NCBI GenBank assembly: GCA_036702865.1
Contig: DATNQD010000071.1
Span: 1-64,000 of the forward strand
DNA: 64,000 nucleotides
Direction: 5' to 3'
DNA from: Trichocoleus sp.
Lineage (GTDB): Bacteria; Cyanobacteriota; Cyanobacteriia; Elainellales; Elainellaceae
In this document: positions 52,303 through 62,324 of the stretch, in pieces
Layout of the letters: each line of letters starts with the position of its first letter
Position numbering within the stretch: position 1 is the stretch's first letter
Notes under the pieces: model-generated
Database searches by the model: none
What the model saw: the letters and a program-made list of their open reading frames with translations, nothing else
What the model was told of the DNA's origin: nothing
Position numbers and translations under genes: made by a program

Positions 52303-54564
52303 ATGGAAAACGCTACTTTAAAGTTAAGGGGCATGAGTTGTGCAGCTTGTGCCACAAACATTGAATCGGCAATTCGGTCTGTGCCGGGTGTGAGTCAGGG
52401 TGATGTAAACTTTGGGGCAGAACTGGCACAGGTTCAATACGATCCGCAAACAACAGATTTAGCCGCTATTCAGCAGGCAGTTGAAGATGCCGGATATGCT
52501 GCTGCTGCACTGGAAGCTCAGGATATTTTTGCAGACGAAGATGAAACTGAAAAAGCGGCAAGACTTGCTCAAGAAAATAACCTAAAGCGCAAAGTTTGGG
52601 TTGGCGCAATCATCAGCGTGATCTTGTTAGTTGGCTCCATTCCAGCGATGACAGGTTGGATGATTCCGTTCATTCCCGCCTGGTTGCATAACTTCTGGCT
52701 GCAAGCTGCATTAACGGCTCCAGTGCAATTTTGGTGTGGCAGAACTTTCTATATCAACGCCTGGAAAGCTTTCAAGCGCCACAGTTCAACCATGGATACC
52801 TTGATTGCATTAGGAACCAGTGCCGCTTATTTTTACTCGCTGTTTGTAACGCTGTTTCCCAGTTTTCTGATCGCTCAGGGTTTAACGCCTCACGTTTATT
52901 ACGAAACTGCCGCGATCGTCATCACGCTTATCTTGCTCGGACGTTTCTTGGAGCATCGGGCCAGGGGTCAAACTTCGGAGGCAATTCGTAAGCTAATTGG
53001 CTTGCAGGCTCGGACAGCCAGAATCATTCGCAGAGGACAGGAAATTGATGTGCCGATCGCTGCGGTGCAAATTGGCGATGTGGTGCTGGTGCGACCGGGC
53101 GAGAAAATTCCGGTGGATGGTGAGGTGATTGAGGGAACATCCACGGTGGATGAATCGATGGTGACGGGTGAGAGTGTGCCGGTGAAAAAGCAGCCTGGAG
53201 ATGAGGTCATTGGGGCAACAATCAACAAAACTGGCAGTTTTCAGTTCCGCACCACTCGGATTGGCAAAGATACGTTTCTGGCGCAGATTGTTCGATTGGT
53301 GCAGCAAGCGCAAGGCTCAAAAGCCCCGATTCAACGATTGGCAGATCAAATTACAGGCTGGTTTGTGCCTGCGGTAATTGCCATTGCCATTGCCACCTTT
53401 ATCATCTGGTTTACGCTGATGGGAAATGTCACCCTGGCAACGATCGCGATGGTCGAAGTGCTGATCATTGCCTGTCCCTGCGCTTTGGGCTTAGCTACAC
53501 CTACTTCCATCATGGTGGGAACTGGGAAAGGAGCAGAGAACGGAATTTTGATTAAAGGCGCAGAAAGTTTAGAACTGGCGCACCGCATCCAAACGATCGT
53601 TCTGGATAAAACGGGCACGATCACAGAAGGAAAGCCAACCGTCACAGATTTTGTCACAGTTAAAGGAACGGCAGATCACAACGAGTTAAATTTGCTGAAC
53701 CTGGCAGCAACAGTAGAACGCTATTCTGAACATCCTCTAGCAGAAGCCGTCGTTCGGTATGCCCAATCCCAGCAAATCGCGCTGACAGAAGCAACCGGAT
53801 TTGAAGCAGTTGCCGGAAGTGGAGTACAGGCAACCGTTCATCATCAGCTCATTCAGATTGGAACGCAGCGATGGATGCAGGAGTTGGGGATTGAAACAGG
53901 CAGCCTGGAGCAGCAAAAACAGCGATTGGAGTATTTGGGCAAGACCGTAATTTGGATCGCGATCGATGGCACAGTCGAAGCAATTATGGGCATTTCAGAT
54001 GCACTGAAACCTTCCTCGAAAGCAGTCGTCCGGACGCTACAAAAACTTGGTTTAGAAGTCGTGATGCTGACCGGGGATAATCGTCCCACGGCTGAAGTGA
54101 TCGCCCGTGAAGTGGGAATTGGCAGAGTTTTGGCAGAAGTGCGACCCGATCAAAAAGCAGCAACGGTGCAACAACTCCAGTCTGAAGGCAAAATTGTGGC
54201 GATGGTGGGAGATGGCATTAATGATGCGCCTGCCTTGGCTCAAGCAGACGTTGGTCTGGCGATCGGTACAGGAACCGATGTGGCAATTGCGGCAAGTGAC
54301 ATTACACTCATCTCTGGCGATCTTCAGGGCATTGTCACTGCTATTCAGCTTTCTCGCGCCACGATGCAAAACATCCGTCAAAATCTCTTTTTCGCGCTGA
54401 TCTATAACGTAGCTGGTATTCCAATCGCCGCAGGGATTCTCTATCCGTTTTCGGGTTGGTTACTCAATCCAATCATTGCCGGAGGAGCGATGGCGTTTAG
54501 CTCGGTTTCAGTCGTCACGAATGCACTGCGGTTGCGAAACTTTCAGCCGCGATCGATTGTTTAA
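52303..54564 (+). CDS. copA: Copper-transporting P1B-type ATPase
   Basis: 753 residues. One N-terminal HMA domain with GMSCAAC (Cys13, Cys16), then eight membrane helices. The CPC metal path is at 391-393 ([13 protein letters not shown]), the phosphorylated Asp435 is in DKTGTITEG, the nucleotide-binding HP motif is in SEHPLAEAV, and [20 protein letters not shown] closes the P-domain. Together these define Cu(I)-type P1B-1 pumps, such as PacS, CtaA or CopA. Whether it exports copper or feeds thylakoid plastocyanin is not decidable here. GGGGGAAT precedes ATG. The small exported protein that follows is likely cotranscribed. Confidence 0.92.
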
Positions 54565-56742: not shown

Positions 56743-57087
56743 CTATCGTCGCAAAGCATCCAGATTGAGAGCCAGCTTGTTGCCCAGCCAAAGCGCATGA
56801 TCGGTATGGTCTGCTAAATCATCACCTGTTTCAGCATGAACCAGAATATCCAGTCCCGATCGGTTGAGCATCAGCCAGGGCACAATCTGAGCAAACTGAT
56901 CTGGAGCAAAGGCAACCTGATACATCGACTGTGGATGAGGTCCGATCGGTTGATCGTGCCAGCGTCCCAGTTGCACCACGAATTGGTTGCCCAGTGCTTC
57001 GCGGATTTGGGCGGCAGTGGTTCGGCTCTCAGGCTGGTAATAAATATGGGCGTGAAATCCCTGAATTGCGATCGCATGATCTTGCAT
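56743..57087 (-). CDS. DOPA 4,5-dioxygenase-like protein
   Basis: 114 residues from ATG 57087. Core: GFHAHIYYQPESRTTAAQIREAL, then LGRWHDQPIGPHPQSMYQVAF and LDILVHAETGDDLADHTDHALWLG. The His residues in HAHIYY, RWHDQPIGPH, and VHAETGDDLADHTDH are those of the DOPA-dioxygenase-like family (PF08883). Substrate in cyanobacteria is unknown. It begins 8 bp after the M56 protease stop on the same strand, so it is likely in that operon. Confidence 0.78.
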   Translation of the reverse strand: MQDHAIAIQGFHAHIYYQPESRTTAAQIREALGNQFVVQLGRWHDQPIGPHPQSMYQVAFAPDQFAQIVPWLMLNRSGLDILVHAETGDDLADHTDHALWLGNKLALNLDALRR

Positions 57088-57095
57088 CGTCTGAA

Positions 57096-57941
57096 TTATC
57101 CATGAAACGGAACAGTCAGGAGCGGCAGCAACACTAAGCCCAGCCAAAGCCATGATCGCGGTTTTTCTTCATAGTCGGGAGCATGATCTAACAAAGCTTC
57201 GATCCGTTCTTCCAATCGACTCAAAGCAAGATCAGCATTAAACGCAGCACAAACCGAGGGAGACATTGTAGAAGTGGACTGAACGATCAGCAGCAGTGCT
57301 TCAGCAATCAGCAGGGCATCTACCCGTTGAGCCGCCCAGCGATCGGCGCGGAGTTCTCGCAGCAGTAAGAGTTCTTGCCAGAGCGTTTCTGTATGAGGCA
57401 GCCAGAGGGTAATTTGCCGCAGCCAGCCCAGCCAGAAAAACCAGAAGGTGTCGTGATAGTGAGCATGTGCCTGTTCGTGCGTTAGAACTGCCTGGAGGTG
57501 TTCTGGAGTGAGGGTTGCGAGTAAGCCACGACTGACAACCAGTTCAGATCGCCAAAATCCAACTTGTGCGGCAAACAGGGCAGGCGTTTCTAAAATCCGT
57601 CCGTTCGTCTTTGTGGGTTCCAGATCGAGCAGTTCCAGCGGATAAGTACGAACCTGCTGCAACGATCGCCATCCGCCCCAAACAAGCCGTAAAAGCTCCA
57701 CTGCGGCAAAACTCAAAAAGCTGCCTGCCAGCAAATCGCCTAACCAACCTGCGGAGATGCCCATCATGGCACCATCCATGCCCATCCATAGAACCGCGAG
57801 TGAAGTGGTGAGCAGCAGCAGCGGCGGCAGCAGAAAGGCTCCAAGGGCAGCATAGCCCTGACAGGTTTGGGCTGATTTGACTTTTAAAAGCCGCACTACC
57901 CAGGCAATGATGACAGCAAAACCCATTAACACGGCGTGCAT
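57096..57941 (-). CDS. M56-family membrane metalloprotease (BlaR1/PetP-like)
   Basis: 281 residues. N-terminal helices (about 3-20, 30-52, 62-82), then the zinc motif HEQAH (155-159) in VLTHEQAHAHYHDTFW and a downstream Glu in ELRADRWAAQRVDALLIAE. A last helix sits at the C-terminus (about 263-278). No extracellular sensor domain of BlaR1 type. In Synechocystis an M56 protease (PetP) cleaves the BlaI-type repressor PetR in response to copper. This gene overlaps the BlaI gene stop by one base (TAATG), the same arrangement. Target and signal here are inferred. Confidence 0.85.
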   Translation of the reverse strand: MHAVLMGFAVIIAWVVRLLKVKSAQTCQGYAALGAFLLPPLLLLTTSLAVLWMGMDGAMMGISAGWLGDLLAGSFLSFAAVELLRLVWGGWRSLQQVRTYPLELLDLEPTKTNGRILETPALFAAQVGFWRSELVVSRGLLATLTPEHLQAVLTHEQAHAHYHDTFWFFWLGWLRQITLWLPHTETLWQELLLLRELRADRWAAQRVDALLIAEALLLIVQSTSTMSPSVCAAFNADLALSRLEERIEALLDHAPDYEEKPRSWLWLGLVLLPLLTVPFHG

Positions 57942-58360
57942 TACTGTTCCTCCCTGGCTTGCCGAGCCGCCTTCAACCGTTGAGCAATGGCATCGAGCTT
58001 ATCAACGCTGGCGCAATCGAGTTCATCGGCAAAGGCAGCGACTACATCCGGATTGCCAACTGCCAAAAATCGCTGAAGCTGATCATGTGCCTGGAGCGCT
58101 TGAGCCTGACTGCGCGAAACAACCGGATACCACCGAAACGCCCGGTCTTGCCGATCGCAATCCAACCAACCTTTCTCAGTCAGACGCCGCAATATGGTTG
58201 TGACAGAAGCATAAGCCAACTCTCGATCGGGATCAGCCAGGATGCGATCGTGAATTTCCTTCACAGTTGCAGAACCCAGTTGCCAAAGGATTTCTAGAAT
58301 CTCTGTTTCTAGGGGTCCAAGGGATAAATGTTTAGGACGCGGTTGAGGCAAGGAGGACAT
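57941..58360 (-). CDS. BlaI/MecI/CopY-family repressor (PetR-like)
   Basis: 139 residues. Winged helix-turn-helix (about 13-75): LSLGPLETEILEILWQLGSATVKEIHDRI, then YASVTTILRRLTEKGWLDCDRQDRAFRWYP. A C-terminal dimerisation helix follows. Overlaps the M56 protease start by one base, a regulator-protease pair. By analogy with PetR it could repress copper- or electron-carrier genes; the operator is not established, but a hairpin palindrome lies upstream at 58493-58508. Confidence 0.85.
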   Translation of the reverse strand: MSSLPQPRPKHLSLGPLETEILEILWQLGSATVKEIHDRILADPDRELAYASVTTILRRLTEKGWLDCDRQDRAFRWYPVVSRSQAQALQAHDQLQRFLAVGNPDVVAAFADELDCASVDKLDAIAQRLKAARQAREEQ

Positions 58361-58492
58361 GGATGGCAGCTAAAAATTGAAAAGATTAGAACTGGAAAAA
58401 TCAGAACCTTGAAAATCGCTTTAAGCAATTAGCTTACCTTGCCACCCCAAAATTTGAACCGAAATCTGCCAGGATTCTTCTAAGTTTTACAG

Positions 58493-58508
58493 CCTGTCTT
58501 TTGACAGG
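58493..58508. promoter_or_regulatory. Palindrome upstream of the BlaI-type repressor
   Basis: CCTGTC-TTTT-GACAGG is a perfect 6-bp inverted repeat in the divergent 283-bp region between the repressor and the TPR gene. It could be a BlaI-type operator or a short hairpin. Confidence 0.35.
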
Positions 58509-58643
58509 AACCACAGCCATTCCGCAGGATAGAAGCGATCGGGCAATTCAGTCATTAACTCATCGAACGGATGACTTATCTATTTCATTTCTCAGGTTAA
58601 AGCAGTGGATTCAAACATAGGTCTTATCTTTAAGGGCTGACTC

Positions 58644-59567
58644 ATGAGACGTTTTCTCGTTTCTGGTGTAGTTTCTAGCATTTTGGCAGTCTTCATGTTC
58701 CTGTCGCTGATGCCCAGTGCTTTGGCAGATGCAAATCTAACCAACCCAGCAATCAGGGAACTGACTCAGCCAAATTGGCTGCGCTCCGGCATTACAGCCT
58801 ATGAGCAAGGCGACTATCAGACTGCAGTAGCCGCTTTTTCAGCAGCGATCGAGCAGGGAGAAACGATGGCAGTTGCCTACAGCGATCGATGCTTGGCGAA
58901 CCTGGCGCTGGGCAATCATGCAGCAGCACTTGCAGACTGTACACAAGCGCTAGAACGCAATCCGGATGATAGCGAAGCTTATCTCAATCGCGGTTTAGCC
59001 TCTTATCGATTGGGCAATTATGCGGCGGCAGTGTCAGACTATGCTCAGCTTCTGCAAATCAACCCGCTTGATTTTCGCGCCTACTACAATCGCGGTTTGG
59101 CTCTCACTGGCTTACAAAACTATCAAGCTGCCATCCTTGATTTTGAGCAAGCACTGCGGCAGGTTTCCCCATCTGACCCTGTGATCTCAGCCGAAATTCT
59201 GGTCGATCGCGGCTTAGCACAACTCCCAAACGACCCCCAACAGGCAATTGCAGACTTCACGACTGCCATTCAACTTAATCATGCAGGGATTCGGGCACTG
59301 TATAACCGGGGCTGTGCTCATCATCAGCAGCAGAATTTGATGGCGGCGATCGAGGATTTTAGTCAGGTGTTACAACTAGCTCCCGATTATGCAGAAGCGC
59401 TGCTCAGCCGAGGATGGATTCGATATCAGCAGGGTGAAACTGTGGCAGCAGTCAAAGATCTGCAGCAAGCAGCTGATTGTTTTTGTCATCAGGGCATGAT
59501 GGTCGCTTATCAAAAAACACTCAATTTACTGGGAAAAATTCGCTCTCCTCAAATTGCAGTGGGTTAG
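58644..59567 (+). CDS. Secreted or lumenal TPR-repeat protein
   Basis: 307 residues. Signal peptide (about 1-28, ending SALADA). Seven or so tetratricopeptide units of about 34 residues, recognisable by repeated A-Y/L-N-R-G (for example SEAYLNRGLASYRLGNYAAAVSDYAQLLQINPLDFRAYYNRG...) and spaced accordingly. Likely an exported scaffold for protein-protein contacts. Divergent from the BlaI/M56 pair; partner unknown. Confidence 0.83.
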   Translation: MRRFLVSGVVSSILAVFMFLSLMPSALADANLTNPAIRELTQPNWLRSGITAYEQGDYQTAVAAFSAAIEQGETMAVAYSDRCLANLALGNHAAALADCTQALERNPDDSEAYLNRGLASYRLGNYAAAVSDYAQLLQINPLDFRAYYNRGLALTGLQNYQAAILDFEQALRQVSPSDPVISAEILVDRGLAQLPNDPQQAIADFTTAIQLNHAGIRALYNRGCAHHQQQNLMAAIEDFSQVLQLAPDYAEALLSRGWIRYQQGETVAAVKDLQQAADCFCHQGMMVAYQKTLNLLGKIRSPQIAVG

Positions 59568-60123
59568 CAAAAACCGAAAAGTTCTCCCTGCTCTCGTTCC
59601 GGACTGCAGATCTCCTCACCTTCATTCCATGCTGCAGCGATCGTTTTGGCTCCCCCACTCCTGACGGCTTCTGTTAGCTTGGGAAGAGAGTTGCAAATTG
59701 GACATTGCTCAGATAGTCATACCAAAACTCAAGCAATGCCGCGAACCAATTTTCAATCTGCGCCAGAAGCGATCGGGCAATCCAGTCCCCCAAACACCAG
59801 ACATGCTCATCTTGATGTAGACGGCAAGCAGGTAAGTAGGTGGGTCAGATTAAATATAAGATCCCCTCGCTTAAAAGCCTTACCCATCCCTACCCCCATT
59901 CTGAAAAGTATCCTCAGTTTAATTACACCCACCTACTTAACACATCTCTATGAAGACTGGTACTACTTAAGTGAGTTGTCGCCCAAACACCATGAAGTTA
60001 GGGTTGGTCTGAGTGTCACCGAGCATCAAGAACTTGTTTATCAGGGACAGCCAGTCGTTGATACTGAAGTGATTGATCTGCCCTCCGTAAGAACCGTCTC
60101 CTTTATCGAACCAACCGTTCACA
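59568..60123. other. Intergenic region with a palindromic repeat
   Basis: 556 bp. Holds the MITE-like element at 59833-59939. A plus-strand open frame at 59646-60149 runs through that element and has no recognised domain; its downstream end overlaps the next gene, so it is not called. Confidence 0.4.
59833..59939. mobile_element. 107-bp MITE-like palindromic element
   Basis: Perfect 13-bp terminal inverted repeats TAAGTAGGTGGGT (59833-59845) and ACCCACCTACTTA (59927-59939). Similarity continues inward (GGGT-NN-(A/G)ATTAAA on both arms). It has the size and form of a miniature inverted-repeat element. No clear target-site duplication, and only one copy was seen in this window. Confidence 0.6.
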
Positions 60124-61353
60124 ATGCTCGATTTTTTGCTCCTCCTTAGCCTGGGTTTTTTGGGCAGCTTTGGTCACTGCGCTGGCATGTGTGGTCCGAT
60201 CGCCGTGGCATTCTCGCTTTCCAATCAGTCTGATCCTTCGCCGTCTCGCTGGGAACAGGTGCGCTTTCATCTGTTGCTCAATCTAGGGCGCATTCTCAGC
60301 TATGTCTTCATTGGTGCAGCGATCGGGGCAGTGGGGTCTGTGCTGATTGCAGGCGGACAAATGGCGGGTATCGGAAGTTTGCTGCGGCGAATCATGGCAC
60401 TGCTAACAGGAGCAATGCTGATCTGGTTTGGGTTAAGCCAGGTTGCTCCCCGCCTCGTTCCTCATGTGCCGCTGCTGCATCCGCTCCTTCAGGGCAAACT
60501 GCACGATCGGCTGAGTCGGAGCATGGTCAACCTGTCGATGGATTCGCAATGGTGGACTCCCTTTTTGCTGGGGACGGTTTGGGGTCTAATTCCCTGTGGC
60601 TTTCTATATGCTGCCCAGATTAAAGCAGCGGAAACGGGAAATCTTGGGCAGGGCATGATGACATTGCTGGCGTTTGGTTTAGGCACAGTGCCGATGATGC
60701 TGGGAGTGGGCGTTTCTGCTAGTTGGATCAGTGCCGATCGCCGCAGTCAGCTATTTCGTCTGGGCGGATGGATTACGCTGACGATCGGAATTCTCACCCT
60801 GGCACGAACTGGCGAGACGATGAGCGATTTTACTGGGTATGGATCGCTAATTTGTTTAGTCCTGGCGTTGATTGCGCGTCCCCTCAGCCGAGTCTGGTCT
60901 GCTTTGTTGCGCTATCGGCGGGTTTTGGGCGTTGGAGCCTTTTTGCTGGCGCTGGCGCATACACTCCACATGATCGATCACAGTTGGGAATGGAACTTTG
61001 AGGCACTTGCCTTCATGCCTGTTCAGTATCAGTGGGGCATTGGAGCAGGGGGGATAGCATTGTTGGGGATGCTGCCCGCAGCGCTGACGAGCTTCGATCG
61101 TGCTCAAAAAATCTTGGGCTCGCTGTGGCGATCGATTCATCTGCTAACGGTTCCGGCTTTGCTGCTGGCGGCAGTTCACTGTATTCTGGTAAGTCCCCAG
61201 TTTTTAGGCGCATCTGAAATGAGTTCCTGGAACTGGGTTTGGGTTGCGGGGTTAGGGGCGATCGTGCTCGGCGTTTTGCTGCTGCGCTGTCGCTGGGTTT
61301 GGTCAATGTTCGCGTTAGAGAGGTTTTATGTTCCACCCACACAAGCTAAATAG
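60124..61353 (+). CDS. SafE/UreH-like membrane protein fused to a possible haem-binding domain
   Basis: 409 residues, about ten helices. The N-terminal half (about 1-205) has GHCAGMCGPIAVAFS near the start and GLIPCGFLYAAQ in the middle, hallmarks of the sulfite-exporter/UreH-like (COG2836) membrane family, whose members often accompany copper and cytochrome-oxidase genes. The C-terminal half (about 260-400) has several helices with His residues (ALAHTLHMIDHSW, RSIHLL, AAVHCILV) like ferric-reductase or b-type cytochrome domains. The next gene overlaps by 26 bp. Possibly involved in copper or haem handling; inferred. Confidence 0.7.
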   Translation: MLDFLLLLSLGFLGSFGHCAGMCGPIAVAFSLSNQSDPSPSRWEQVRFHLLLNLGRILSYVFIGAAIGAVGSVLIAGGQMAGIGSLLRRIMALLTGAMLIWFGLSQVAPRLVPHVPLLHPLLQGKLHDRLSRSMVNLSMDSQWWTPFLLGTVWGLIPCGFLYAAQIKAAETGNLGQGMMTLLAFGLGTVPMMLGVGVSASWISADRRSQLFRLGGWITLTIGILTLARTGETMSDFTGYGSLICLVLALIARPLSRVWSALLRYRRVLGVGAFLLALAHTLHMIDHSWEWNFEALAFMPVQYQWGIGAGGIALLGMLPAALTSFDRAQKILGSLWRSIHLLTVPALLLAAVHCILVSPQFLGASEMSSWNWVWVAGLGAIVLGVLLLRCRWVWSMFALERFYVPPTQAK

Positions 61354-61801
61354 TTTACTCAAGTGGATTTTGGGTGCTTCGATCGCGCTTTCTCCGGTGC
61401 TGATCTGGAAAGCGATCGAACCGCAACGAACCGACGCTCATGAAGTCGAGGTTTCTGGAGATGTGGGTGCAACAATGCACATTGAGCCAAACGACAATCC
61501 TAGAGCAGGGCGATCGAACCTGGTTTGGTTTGCGGTGATGAAAAAAGGTGGACAGCCCGTTTCGCTTTCAAGCTGTAATTGTTCCCTGGCAGTCTACAGC
61601 CAACCCCGCAGGCAAAACGACACACCCATTCAACAACCTGCACTTCAGGCGACTACGGCTCAAGGCAGACAGAATGTCCCCAGCGCCAATGTGACGTTTC
61701 CCCGAGCTGGAGCTTATGAGCTGGTGCTACGCGGTAGCCCTAAGACCGCAGGCGCATTCTCACCGTTTGAATTACGTTTTGCGGTGACTGTTGCTCAGTA
61801 G
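61328..61801 (+). CDS. Exported Ig-like protein, coupled to the SafE-like gene
   Basis: 157 residues with AGAGAGG before the ATG. N-terminal membrane anchor or signal (about 13-31). The mature part is beta-rich (VEVSGDVGATMHIEPNDNPRAGRSNLVWFAVMKKGGQPV) with a C-x-C (SSCNCSLAVY). The end is ANVTFPRAGAYELVLRGS, giving an Ig-like fold recalling CopC/YtkA-type periplasmic proteins. The CxC could bind copper. Overlap with the upstream membrane gene implies they work together. Function inferred. Confidence 0.65.
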   Translation: MFHPHKLNSLLKWILGASIALSPVLIWKAIEPQRTDAHEVEVSGDVGATMHIEPNDNPRAGRSNLVWFAVMKKGGQPVSLSSCNCSLAVYSQPRRQNDTPIQQPALQATTAQGRQNVPSANVTFPRAGAYELVLRGSPKTAGAFSPFELRFAVTVAQ

Positions 61802-61841
61802 ATAATCCCCACTAGACAGTAGACGAATAGACACCAGTCCT

Positions 61842-62324
61842 TTAACGCAACTGCCCAGTCGCCCAAGGATTGGTCTGAGCTGGAGCCGTTTGCTGAATTG
61901 CTGCCGCTTCTACACTGGAATAGCTGCTGATATGGACAAAGCTGGGCGTGAAGAGAAACACATGGCTGCTAAGCTGGCGCTGGTGTCCATCGATCGCAAA
62001 TGCCCCACCCGACAAATAATCGGCGCAGCGTTGAGCCTGGATTGCATCCAATAAGCTGAGATTGAGCACAACTGATTTTCGTTCGCGCAGTGCCGTTACT
62101 GCCTGAGCCACATCATCAAACGATTTGGGCTGCATCAGCACCATTTCCATCATCGCTCCCGGTAAGCCCACCACCTTGCTGTGAGGCGATCGGCGCACCA
62201 GCGGCACAGGTTCAGTCGCGCCCTCTATCAGGAGGACTTCACTCACTTCCTCGTCATAGCCGTCATACTCTTCGTAGACGTCACTAAATCCGAGTGTCTC
62301 CCGTAGCCGTTGAAAGAGATTCAT
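61842..62324 (-). CDS. sepF: Cell-division protein SepF
   Basis: 160 residues. N-terminal membrane-binding amphipathic helix (MNLFQRLRETLGF), an acidic linker, and the SepF core (about 55-140): VVLNLSLLDAIQAQRCADYLSGGAFAIDGHQRQLSSHVFLFTPSFVHI. SepF (Cdv2 in cyanobacteria) tethers and bundles FtsZ at the division site. Complete. Confidence 0.93.
   Translation of the reverse strand: MNLFQRLRETLGFSDVYEEYDGYDEEVSEVLLIEGATEPVPLVRRSPHSKVVGLPGAMMEMVLMQPKSFDDVAQAVTALRERKSVVLNLSLLDAIQAQRCADYLSGGAFAIDGHQRQLSSHVFLFTPSFVHISSYSSVEAAAIQQTAPAQTNPWATGQLR

Follow-up and report, generated by a model that had tools for sequence, protein, structure and literature searches.

The petR/petP-like locus of Trichocoleus sp. 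and the divergent genes

The window analyzed here, a 64,000-nucleotide stretch of contig DATNQD010000071.1 (C71 of the 5.93-Mb genome G000) from Trichocoleus sp., contains a pair of genes for a BlaI-family regulator and a membrane metalloprotease that resemble the cyanobacterial PetR/PetP system, and, divergent from them, a gene for a membrane protein with SafE and haem domains (SafE-haem, gene safE) followed by a gene for an exported protein with a CxC motif (cxc). A sequence element proposed to be the PetR box lies between the two groups, and the analysis described below suggests that safE and cxc probably serve in the acquisition of copper under the control of PetR. The elements concerned are:

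57096–57941, minus strand: petP-like gene for an M56/M48-type membrane metalloprotease with a HEQAH motif
57941–58360, minus strand: petR-like gene for a BlaI-family regulator (PF03965, E 3.4e-31)
58485–58505, minus strand: proposed PetR box GTCAAAAGACAGGCTGTAAAA, an exact match between the divergent petR and TPR genes
58644–59567, plus strand: gene for an exported TPR-repeat protein (tpr), the first one that follows the box in the direction of safE, with the same place in relatives
60124–61353, plus strand: safE, coding for a fusion of a SafE/DsbD_2 membrane domain with a haem domain like that of ferric reductases
61328–61801, plus strand: cxc, coding for the exported CxC protein (CNC at residues 83–85) and overlapping safE by 26 nt

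The initial annotation of this region, made from the sequence alone, had reported overlapping genes of the BlaI and M56 types, a membrane protein with a HCxGMCG motif and an exported CxC protein encoded by a gene that overlaps the preceding one, all of which is borne out: the start of the protease gene and the end of the BlaI gene have one base in common, the open reading frames are as described, HCAGMCG occupies residues 18–24 of SafE-haem, which matches PF13386, and the overlap and the CNC motif are those listed above. The BlaI-family gene is the sole one in the window genome. The protease scores below the Pfam cut-off for M56 (23.6 bits versus 31) and above that for M48 (26.8 bits versus 20.3), and in the alignment of its PetP-like homologs H155, E156, H159, E196, M53, M59 and H280 are invariant (24/24). 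M53, G54, G57 and M59 together with the C-terminal H280, likewise invariant in all 24, are candidate copper-sensing residues. On the other side of the box tpr, a degraded small gene, safE and cxc all run on the plus strand.

Among 36 genomes of the order, homologs of petR were found in 31, of safE in 31 (the matches in G013 and G024 are weak and partial, and that in G002 is a fragment at a contig edge) and of the CxC family in 32. In 11 genomes of the order, that of the window included, petR and safE occur on one fetched locus and are always divergent, and in many such loci petJ and then tpr stand between petR and safE. In view of this petJ-tpr-safE run in the relatives, the window carries a 'petJ operon' that has lost petJ itself. 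A divergent position of petJ relative to petRP has been described in a paper on PetRP neighborhoods (PMC9252766). The TPR gene is not essential to the association of the box with safE, because G026 keeps only a remnant of tpr behind the same box.

A box common to petR and safE

A listing of 30 related petR genes revealed the box GTCAAAAGACNNNNTGTMAAA as common to their upstream regions, with petR itself on the box strand. It occurs on the petR strand with at most 2 mismatches in 18 of the 30 regions, while the reversed-pattern control gave 0/30. The window has a single good copy, separated by 124 bp from petR and by 138 bp from tpr, and at up to 1 mismatch the whole genome holds just one other copy, also exact, on contig C60 (30087–30107, loci L195 and L166), 54 bp before a PepSY_TM gene. 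Across the order, the opposite-strand genes facing the box are petJ-like (11 cases), PepSY_TM (10), TPR (8), MbnP (6), safE directly (5), TonB receptor (5) and TauD-like (2), plus single genes; the assignments of MbnP, MbnH, PepSY_TM and the TonB receptor were confirmed with Pfam and NCBIfam for the representatives tested. An isolated case is that of G035 (L235 2576–2596), in which a one-mismatch box is found 42 bp ahead of a gene for cytochrome c assembly (PF01578).

The same box, in the same polarity, is found in relatives either directly before safE-cxc or before the petJ-tpr-safE-cxc run, and there are longer versions of this arrangement, box-MbnP-MbnH-safE-cxc in G034 (L135 3544–7819) and box-petJ-tpr-MbnP-MbnH-safE in the named Oculatellaceae genome Prado106. 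Within the order, the 3 kb upstream of safE contain the box at 23 of 28 loci (control 0/28), and several of these loci show the arrangement box-petJ-tpr-safE. A larger set was formed by 80 safE loci from named genomes (the best 80 of 446 candidates, mostly Nostocales), fetched with up to 10 kb on each side of safE. Here the box appears in antisense within 1 kb upstream in 72 loci at no more than 1 mismatch (49 exact), at a median distance of 140 bp, as compared with 0/80 for the reversed pattern and 0/80 for the box on the sense strand. In 23 non-redundant windows around it the box averages 1.75 bits of information per base, versus 0.53 and 0.30 for its flanks. The CxC gene follows safE in 78 of the 80 loci, and petR lies inside the fetched locus in just one, so the box at safE is not a matter of synteny with petR. 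In G026, G029 and G030 the box is kept at safE though petRP is 0.58–2.7 Mb away.

A sample of 194 genomes from the phylum contains petR in 65, safE in 46 and both in 38. The test for the box at safE covered 44 of these 46 safE loci, with those of G000 and G030, already included in the order set, left out: at up to 1 mismatch the box precedes safE in 25 of 36 petR-bearing genomes versus 0 of 8 that lack petR (Fisher p = 4e-4), and at up to 2 mismatches in 28 of 36 versus 1 of 8. Counted genome-wide by hand tally, the box occurs in 61 of 65 petR-positive and 18 of 129 petR-negative genomes, and the reversed-pattern control in 10 of 65 and 11 of 129 of the same genomes; these counts are not independent events, because the two groups differ in genome size and lineage. 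What the sequences themselves show is the genes, the box, how well it is conserved and that it tends to occur together with petR. The regulatory link from a PetR box to safE-cxc is well supported by sequence.

Domain analysis of SafE-haem and the CxC protein

The SafE part of SafE-haem matches PF13386 with 164.1 bits (cut-off 24.9), and its second half matches PF01794 (Ferric_reduct, 37.3 bits). The best NCBIfam match of this second half is the MsrQ haem subunit, at 43.6 bits versus an equivalog cut-off of 130, which is not reached, and only the haem domain of the protein is related to MsrQ. This part had been initially annotated as a 'His-rich helical domain', for which a ferric-reductase/MsrQ-like haem domain is the better description. 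H18, C19, M22, C23, C158, H279 and H339 are invariant in 26/26 homologs, and His339 and His352 have a spacing reminiscent of haem ligands of the MsrQ type. The search of the PDB with the SafE sequence returned one chance match only.

The CxC protein has no match to any Pfam family at E up to 0.1, CopC included, or to any NCBIfam family. Its predicted mature form starts at His38; in 34 of 38 homologs a His directly follows the final Ala of a signal-peptide-like segment, with HxEP next in the sequence. The family keeps His51 and Cys85 without exception, and 31 of 38 members fit the CxC pattern used. The structural model of the mature domain (block means of the predicted local distance difference test, pLDDT, 95–98, about 97) is a β-sandwich like those of CrdA, FetP and P19: Foldseek placed CrdA and FetP at the top, and the VIA-align Z-scores are 12.6 for CrdA, 11.4 for FetP, 11.3 for HftA, 10.8 for FtrA and 10.1 for P19, with PmoD lower at 8.7. 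The proteins matched by fold are metal proteins of extracytoplasmic location, and several of their structures were determined with copper, though a common fold as such is no proof that the modelled CxC protein binds copper. A second protein of the CxC family is encoded outside the PetR region of the window genome (C42 26771–27136, L096); it is 38–39% identical, has CHC as its motif and also carries a His after the predicted signal peptide. Paralogs of this kind occur in other genomes too; those of G004 and G006 are divergent.

Other genes of the region

The remaining features are:

52303–54564, plus strand: copA (TIGR01511)
56743–57153, minus strand: gene of the DOPA-dioxygenase family (PF08883), unrelated
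59568–60142, plus strand: remnant of a small exported His-rich gene, with its 5' part missing and interrupted
59833–59939: 107-bp stretch like a miniature inverted-repeat transposable element, with 22-nt inverted arms (86% complementary), inside the remnant gene

The initial annotation had treated 56743–61801 together with copA as a copper-handling region. Its range did contain the genes it described, but it began with the unrelated DOPA-dioxygenase gene, and the TPR gene, the remnant at 59568–60142 and the box had been missed. The inclusion of copA did not survive the comparison: copA lies about 2.5 kb from the BlaI/protease pair, and it was rejected as a conserved member of the system, a strong copA match being found near the block only in the window's genome among the order loci examined. 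The DOPA-dioxygenase gene is on the same strand as the protease gene and overlaps its 3' end by 58 bases.

Neither the remnant nor the full-length homolog tested has an NCBIfam match, and in Pfam the remnant gave no match and the homolog none above cut-off. The full-length homologs (155–179 residues; L218, L295, L182, L121, L132) begin like a signal peptide, are rich in His over part of their length and contain EGHAHLYxxGxKITRLYGNWYYL or a motif near to it, and in several genomes the His-rich gene lies a few hundred bases behind the box. The 107-bp stretch encodes extra residues that the homologs of the remnant do not have. Promoter and terminator scans of 58300–61900 found none.

Functional interpretation

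Our favored reading, to which we give a probability of roughly two in three, is that PetR activates a regulon for copper starvation and that safE-cxc is a periplasmic module for the capture, reduction and transfer of copper. The BlaI/M56 pair would be the PetR/PetP system of Trichocoleus sp., and from its position between the divergent petR and tpr genes the box would put tpr, the remnant, safE and cxc under PetR. As in the Synechocystis model, PetP would destroy PetR when copper is present, and when copper is scarce PetR would build up and activate genes of the petJ type; since the polarity of the box toward safE is the same as that toward petJ, activation of safE-cxc at low copper is predicted. 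Copper shortage may therefore switch on safE-cxc together with petJ, TonB receptors, MbnP-MbnH and PepSY_TM proteins in the relatives. The exported CxC protein would bind periplasmic copper via its N-terminal His and His51, with CxC as an extra thiol ligand or a redox site, SafE-haem would carry electrons, Cu(I) or both through the membrane, and the pair, by analogy, would capture scarce copper on the periplasmic side of the inner membrane and pass it on in reduced form. We infer the binding of PetR to the box from their co-occurrence and from the position of the box, and we likewise infer the induction by copper shortage and each of the biochemical steps; a role of safE-cxc in copper acquisition is likely, as judged by analogy.

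Several observations count against this reading. The box is missing from 12 of the 30 petR upstream regions, from 8 of the 80 named safE loci and from 11 of the 36 safE loci in petR-positive genomes of the phylum sample, where 27 of 65 genomes with petR have no safE and 8 of 46 with safE have no petR. In the window itself 1.6 kb of DNA, a degraded gene and an insertion included, separate the box from safE, so that co-transcription of the genes behind the box is presumed. The best petJ-like gene of the window genome (contig C22, 49% identity) has no box in the fetched locus, and the box is absent from petE promoters (0/29 on both strands at up to 4 mismatches, 29 of 30 promoters being usable), although a petE site unlike the box would escape this test. 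The CxC protein is only 8–16% identical to the copper proteins that share its fold, and the sequence search of the PDB with its family revealed no relative, only chance matches to STING (E 0.2–0.5). The model of SafE-haem (mean pLDDT 69) is too poor to interpret and was not used, and no PDB match was found for this protein at E ≤0.001. The shared upstream motif that the initial annotation proposed to look for at petE, petJ and 60124 does tie petR to petJ and safE-cxc, but not to petE or to the petJ-like locus of the window genome; the likeness to PetR/PetP gains from the sole BlaI gene and from its divergence from petJ and safE in relatives.

Or perhaps SafE-haem, instead of reducing or importing copper, is a CcdA-like and MsrQ-like conduit for electrons or thiols, which reduces the CxC protein and assists in the maturation or repair of redox proteins in the periplasm, for example cytochrome c6 or the CuA center of the terminal oxidase, and which PetR induces because c6 replaces plastocyanin? 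The DsbD_2 and MsrQ-like haem domains, the invariant membrane cysteines C19, C23 and C158, the gene order box-petJ-tpr-safE and the one-mismatch box before the cytochrome c assembly gene of G035 would all agree with such a role. However, its partner is modelled on copper-binding periplasmic proteins, MbnP-MbnH, TonB receptors and PepSY_TM in the same set of box-bearing genes indicate metal acquisition, and the MsrQ score stays far below its cut-off, so we consider this function unlikely, if worth keeping in mind. That the box belongs to another regulator, and that petR and safE are neighbors only through inherited gene order, would be compatible with the petR upstream regions in which the box is lacking and with the indirect nature of the case for PetR binding. 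We regard it as quite improbable, as the counts of the box follow the presence of petR and those of the reversed control do not, the box stays at safE in the three genomes in which petRP is distant, and it is missing at safE in 8 of 8 genomes without petR at up to 1 mismatch.

Least credible, and in our opinion very improbable, is a cluster for the detoxification of excess copper, in which CopA would export the metal, a CrdA-like protein would bind it and high copper would release a repressor. It could be invoked on account of the proximity of copA, of CrdA, a reported copper resistance determinant (PMC9182242), and of the score of the BlaI protein against CopY/TcrY (47 bits, though under the cut-off). 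Yet copA is not a conserved neighbor and the sole good box of the window is not near it, the box goes with petJ and with TonB and PepSY_TM genes, which fits copper shortage, and PetR has been reported as an activator of petJ at low copper (PMC7896320).

We return to PetR as an activator under copper starvation. Its targets in cyanobacteria, linked by the one conserved box, may add up to a copper-acquisition regulon of petJ, a TonB receptor of the outer membrane, MbnP-MbnH, a PepSY_TM reductase, the His-rich periplasmic protein and the SafE-haem/CrdA-like pair, which would reduce copper and move it across or along the inner membrane, in which case the recognizable targets in the window genome would concern copper handling and not the exchange of plastocyanin and c6; for this wider proposal the chances seem about even. 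So far the PetR switch has been known mainly for exchanging two photosynthetic electron carriers, and PetR would, if our reading is true, be recast as a regulator of the response to copper starvation. According to a review (PMC12292863), CtaA is the only well-characterized copper importer of cyanobacteria; the box would make copper uptake testable gene by gene, as it provides a list of candidates predicted to go up when copper falls. No report of safE-cxc as a PetR target was found among the titles and opening lines of abstracts surveyed, a survey that did not extend to the original PetRP paper.

Comparison with known systems

In Synechocystis sp. PCC 6803, PetR acts as a repressor of petE and, at low copper, as an activator of petJ, and in the presence of copper it is destroyed by PetP (PMC7896320, PMC13421787). 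The locus described here is similar in its adjacent genes for a BlaI regulator and a putative BlaR1-type protease, and in that petJ adjoins petR and has the same box in relatives. Unlike the PetRP control of Synechocystis, which reportedly extends to four proteins only (PMC7896320) and includes the repression of petE, the box in this case marks petR, tpr-safE-cxc and the PepSY_TM gene, with none at petE.

Bordetella pertussis acquires copper at low copper with the TonB receptor CrtA and the PepSY_TM protein CrpH (PMC13038864, PMC12914433). The same two families, expressed at low copper there, bear the box here; in contrast, CrtA-CrpH are controlled by the upstream open reading frame CruR and not by a BlaI/M56 pair, and safE-cxc is absent from the available portions of their descriptions.

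The YcnJ protein of Bacillus, in which an extracytoplasmic CopC domain is joined to a membrane CopD domain, imports copper (PMC13344008). CopC-CopD/YcnJ and safE-cxc resemble each other in the combination of an exported copper protein (a putative one in our case) that has an N-terminal His with a polytopic membrane protein, and in the use at low copper, predicted here; they differ in that the CxC protein has no Pfam match and its membrane partner consists of DsbD_2 and Ferric_reduct domains. To CrdA and to the P19, FetP and FtrA proteins the predicted mature CxC protein is similar in fold (Z 9.7–12.6), but the low identity given above, CxC together with the predicted N-terminal His, and the lack of the Met-rich motif of CrdA (MXXMPGM, in the form given in PMC9182242) set it apart.

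MbnP-MbnH are absent from the window, whereas in relatives (G034, G028) they have both the box and the operon in common with safE. These proteins occur with methanobactin operons, in a role described as unclear (PMC3621798). The run of G034 at L135 3544–7819 and the run that also holds petJ and tpr, at L321 116–5320, place the copper-linked MbnP-MbnH in photosynthesis-linked operons of cyanobacteria.

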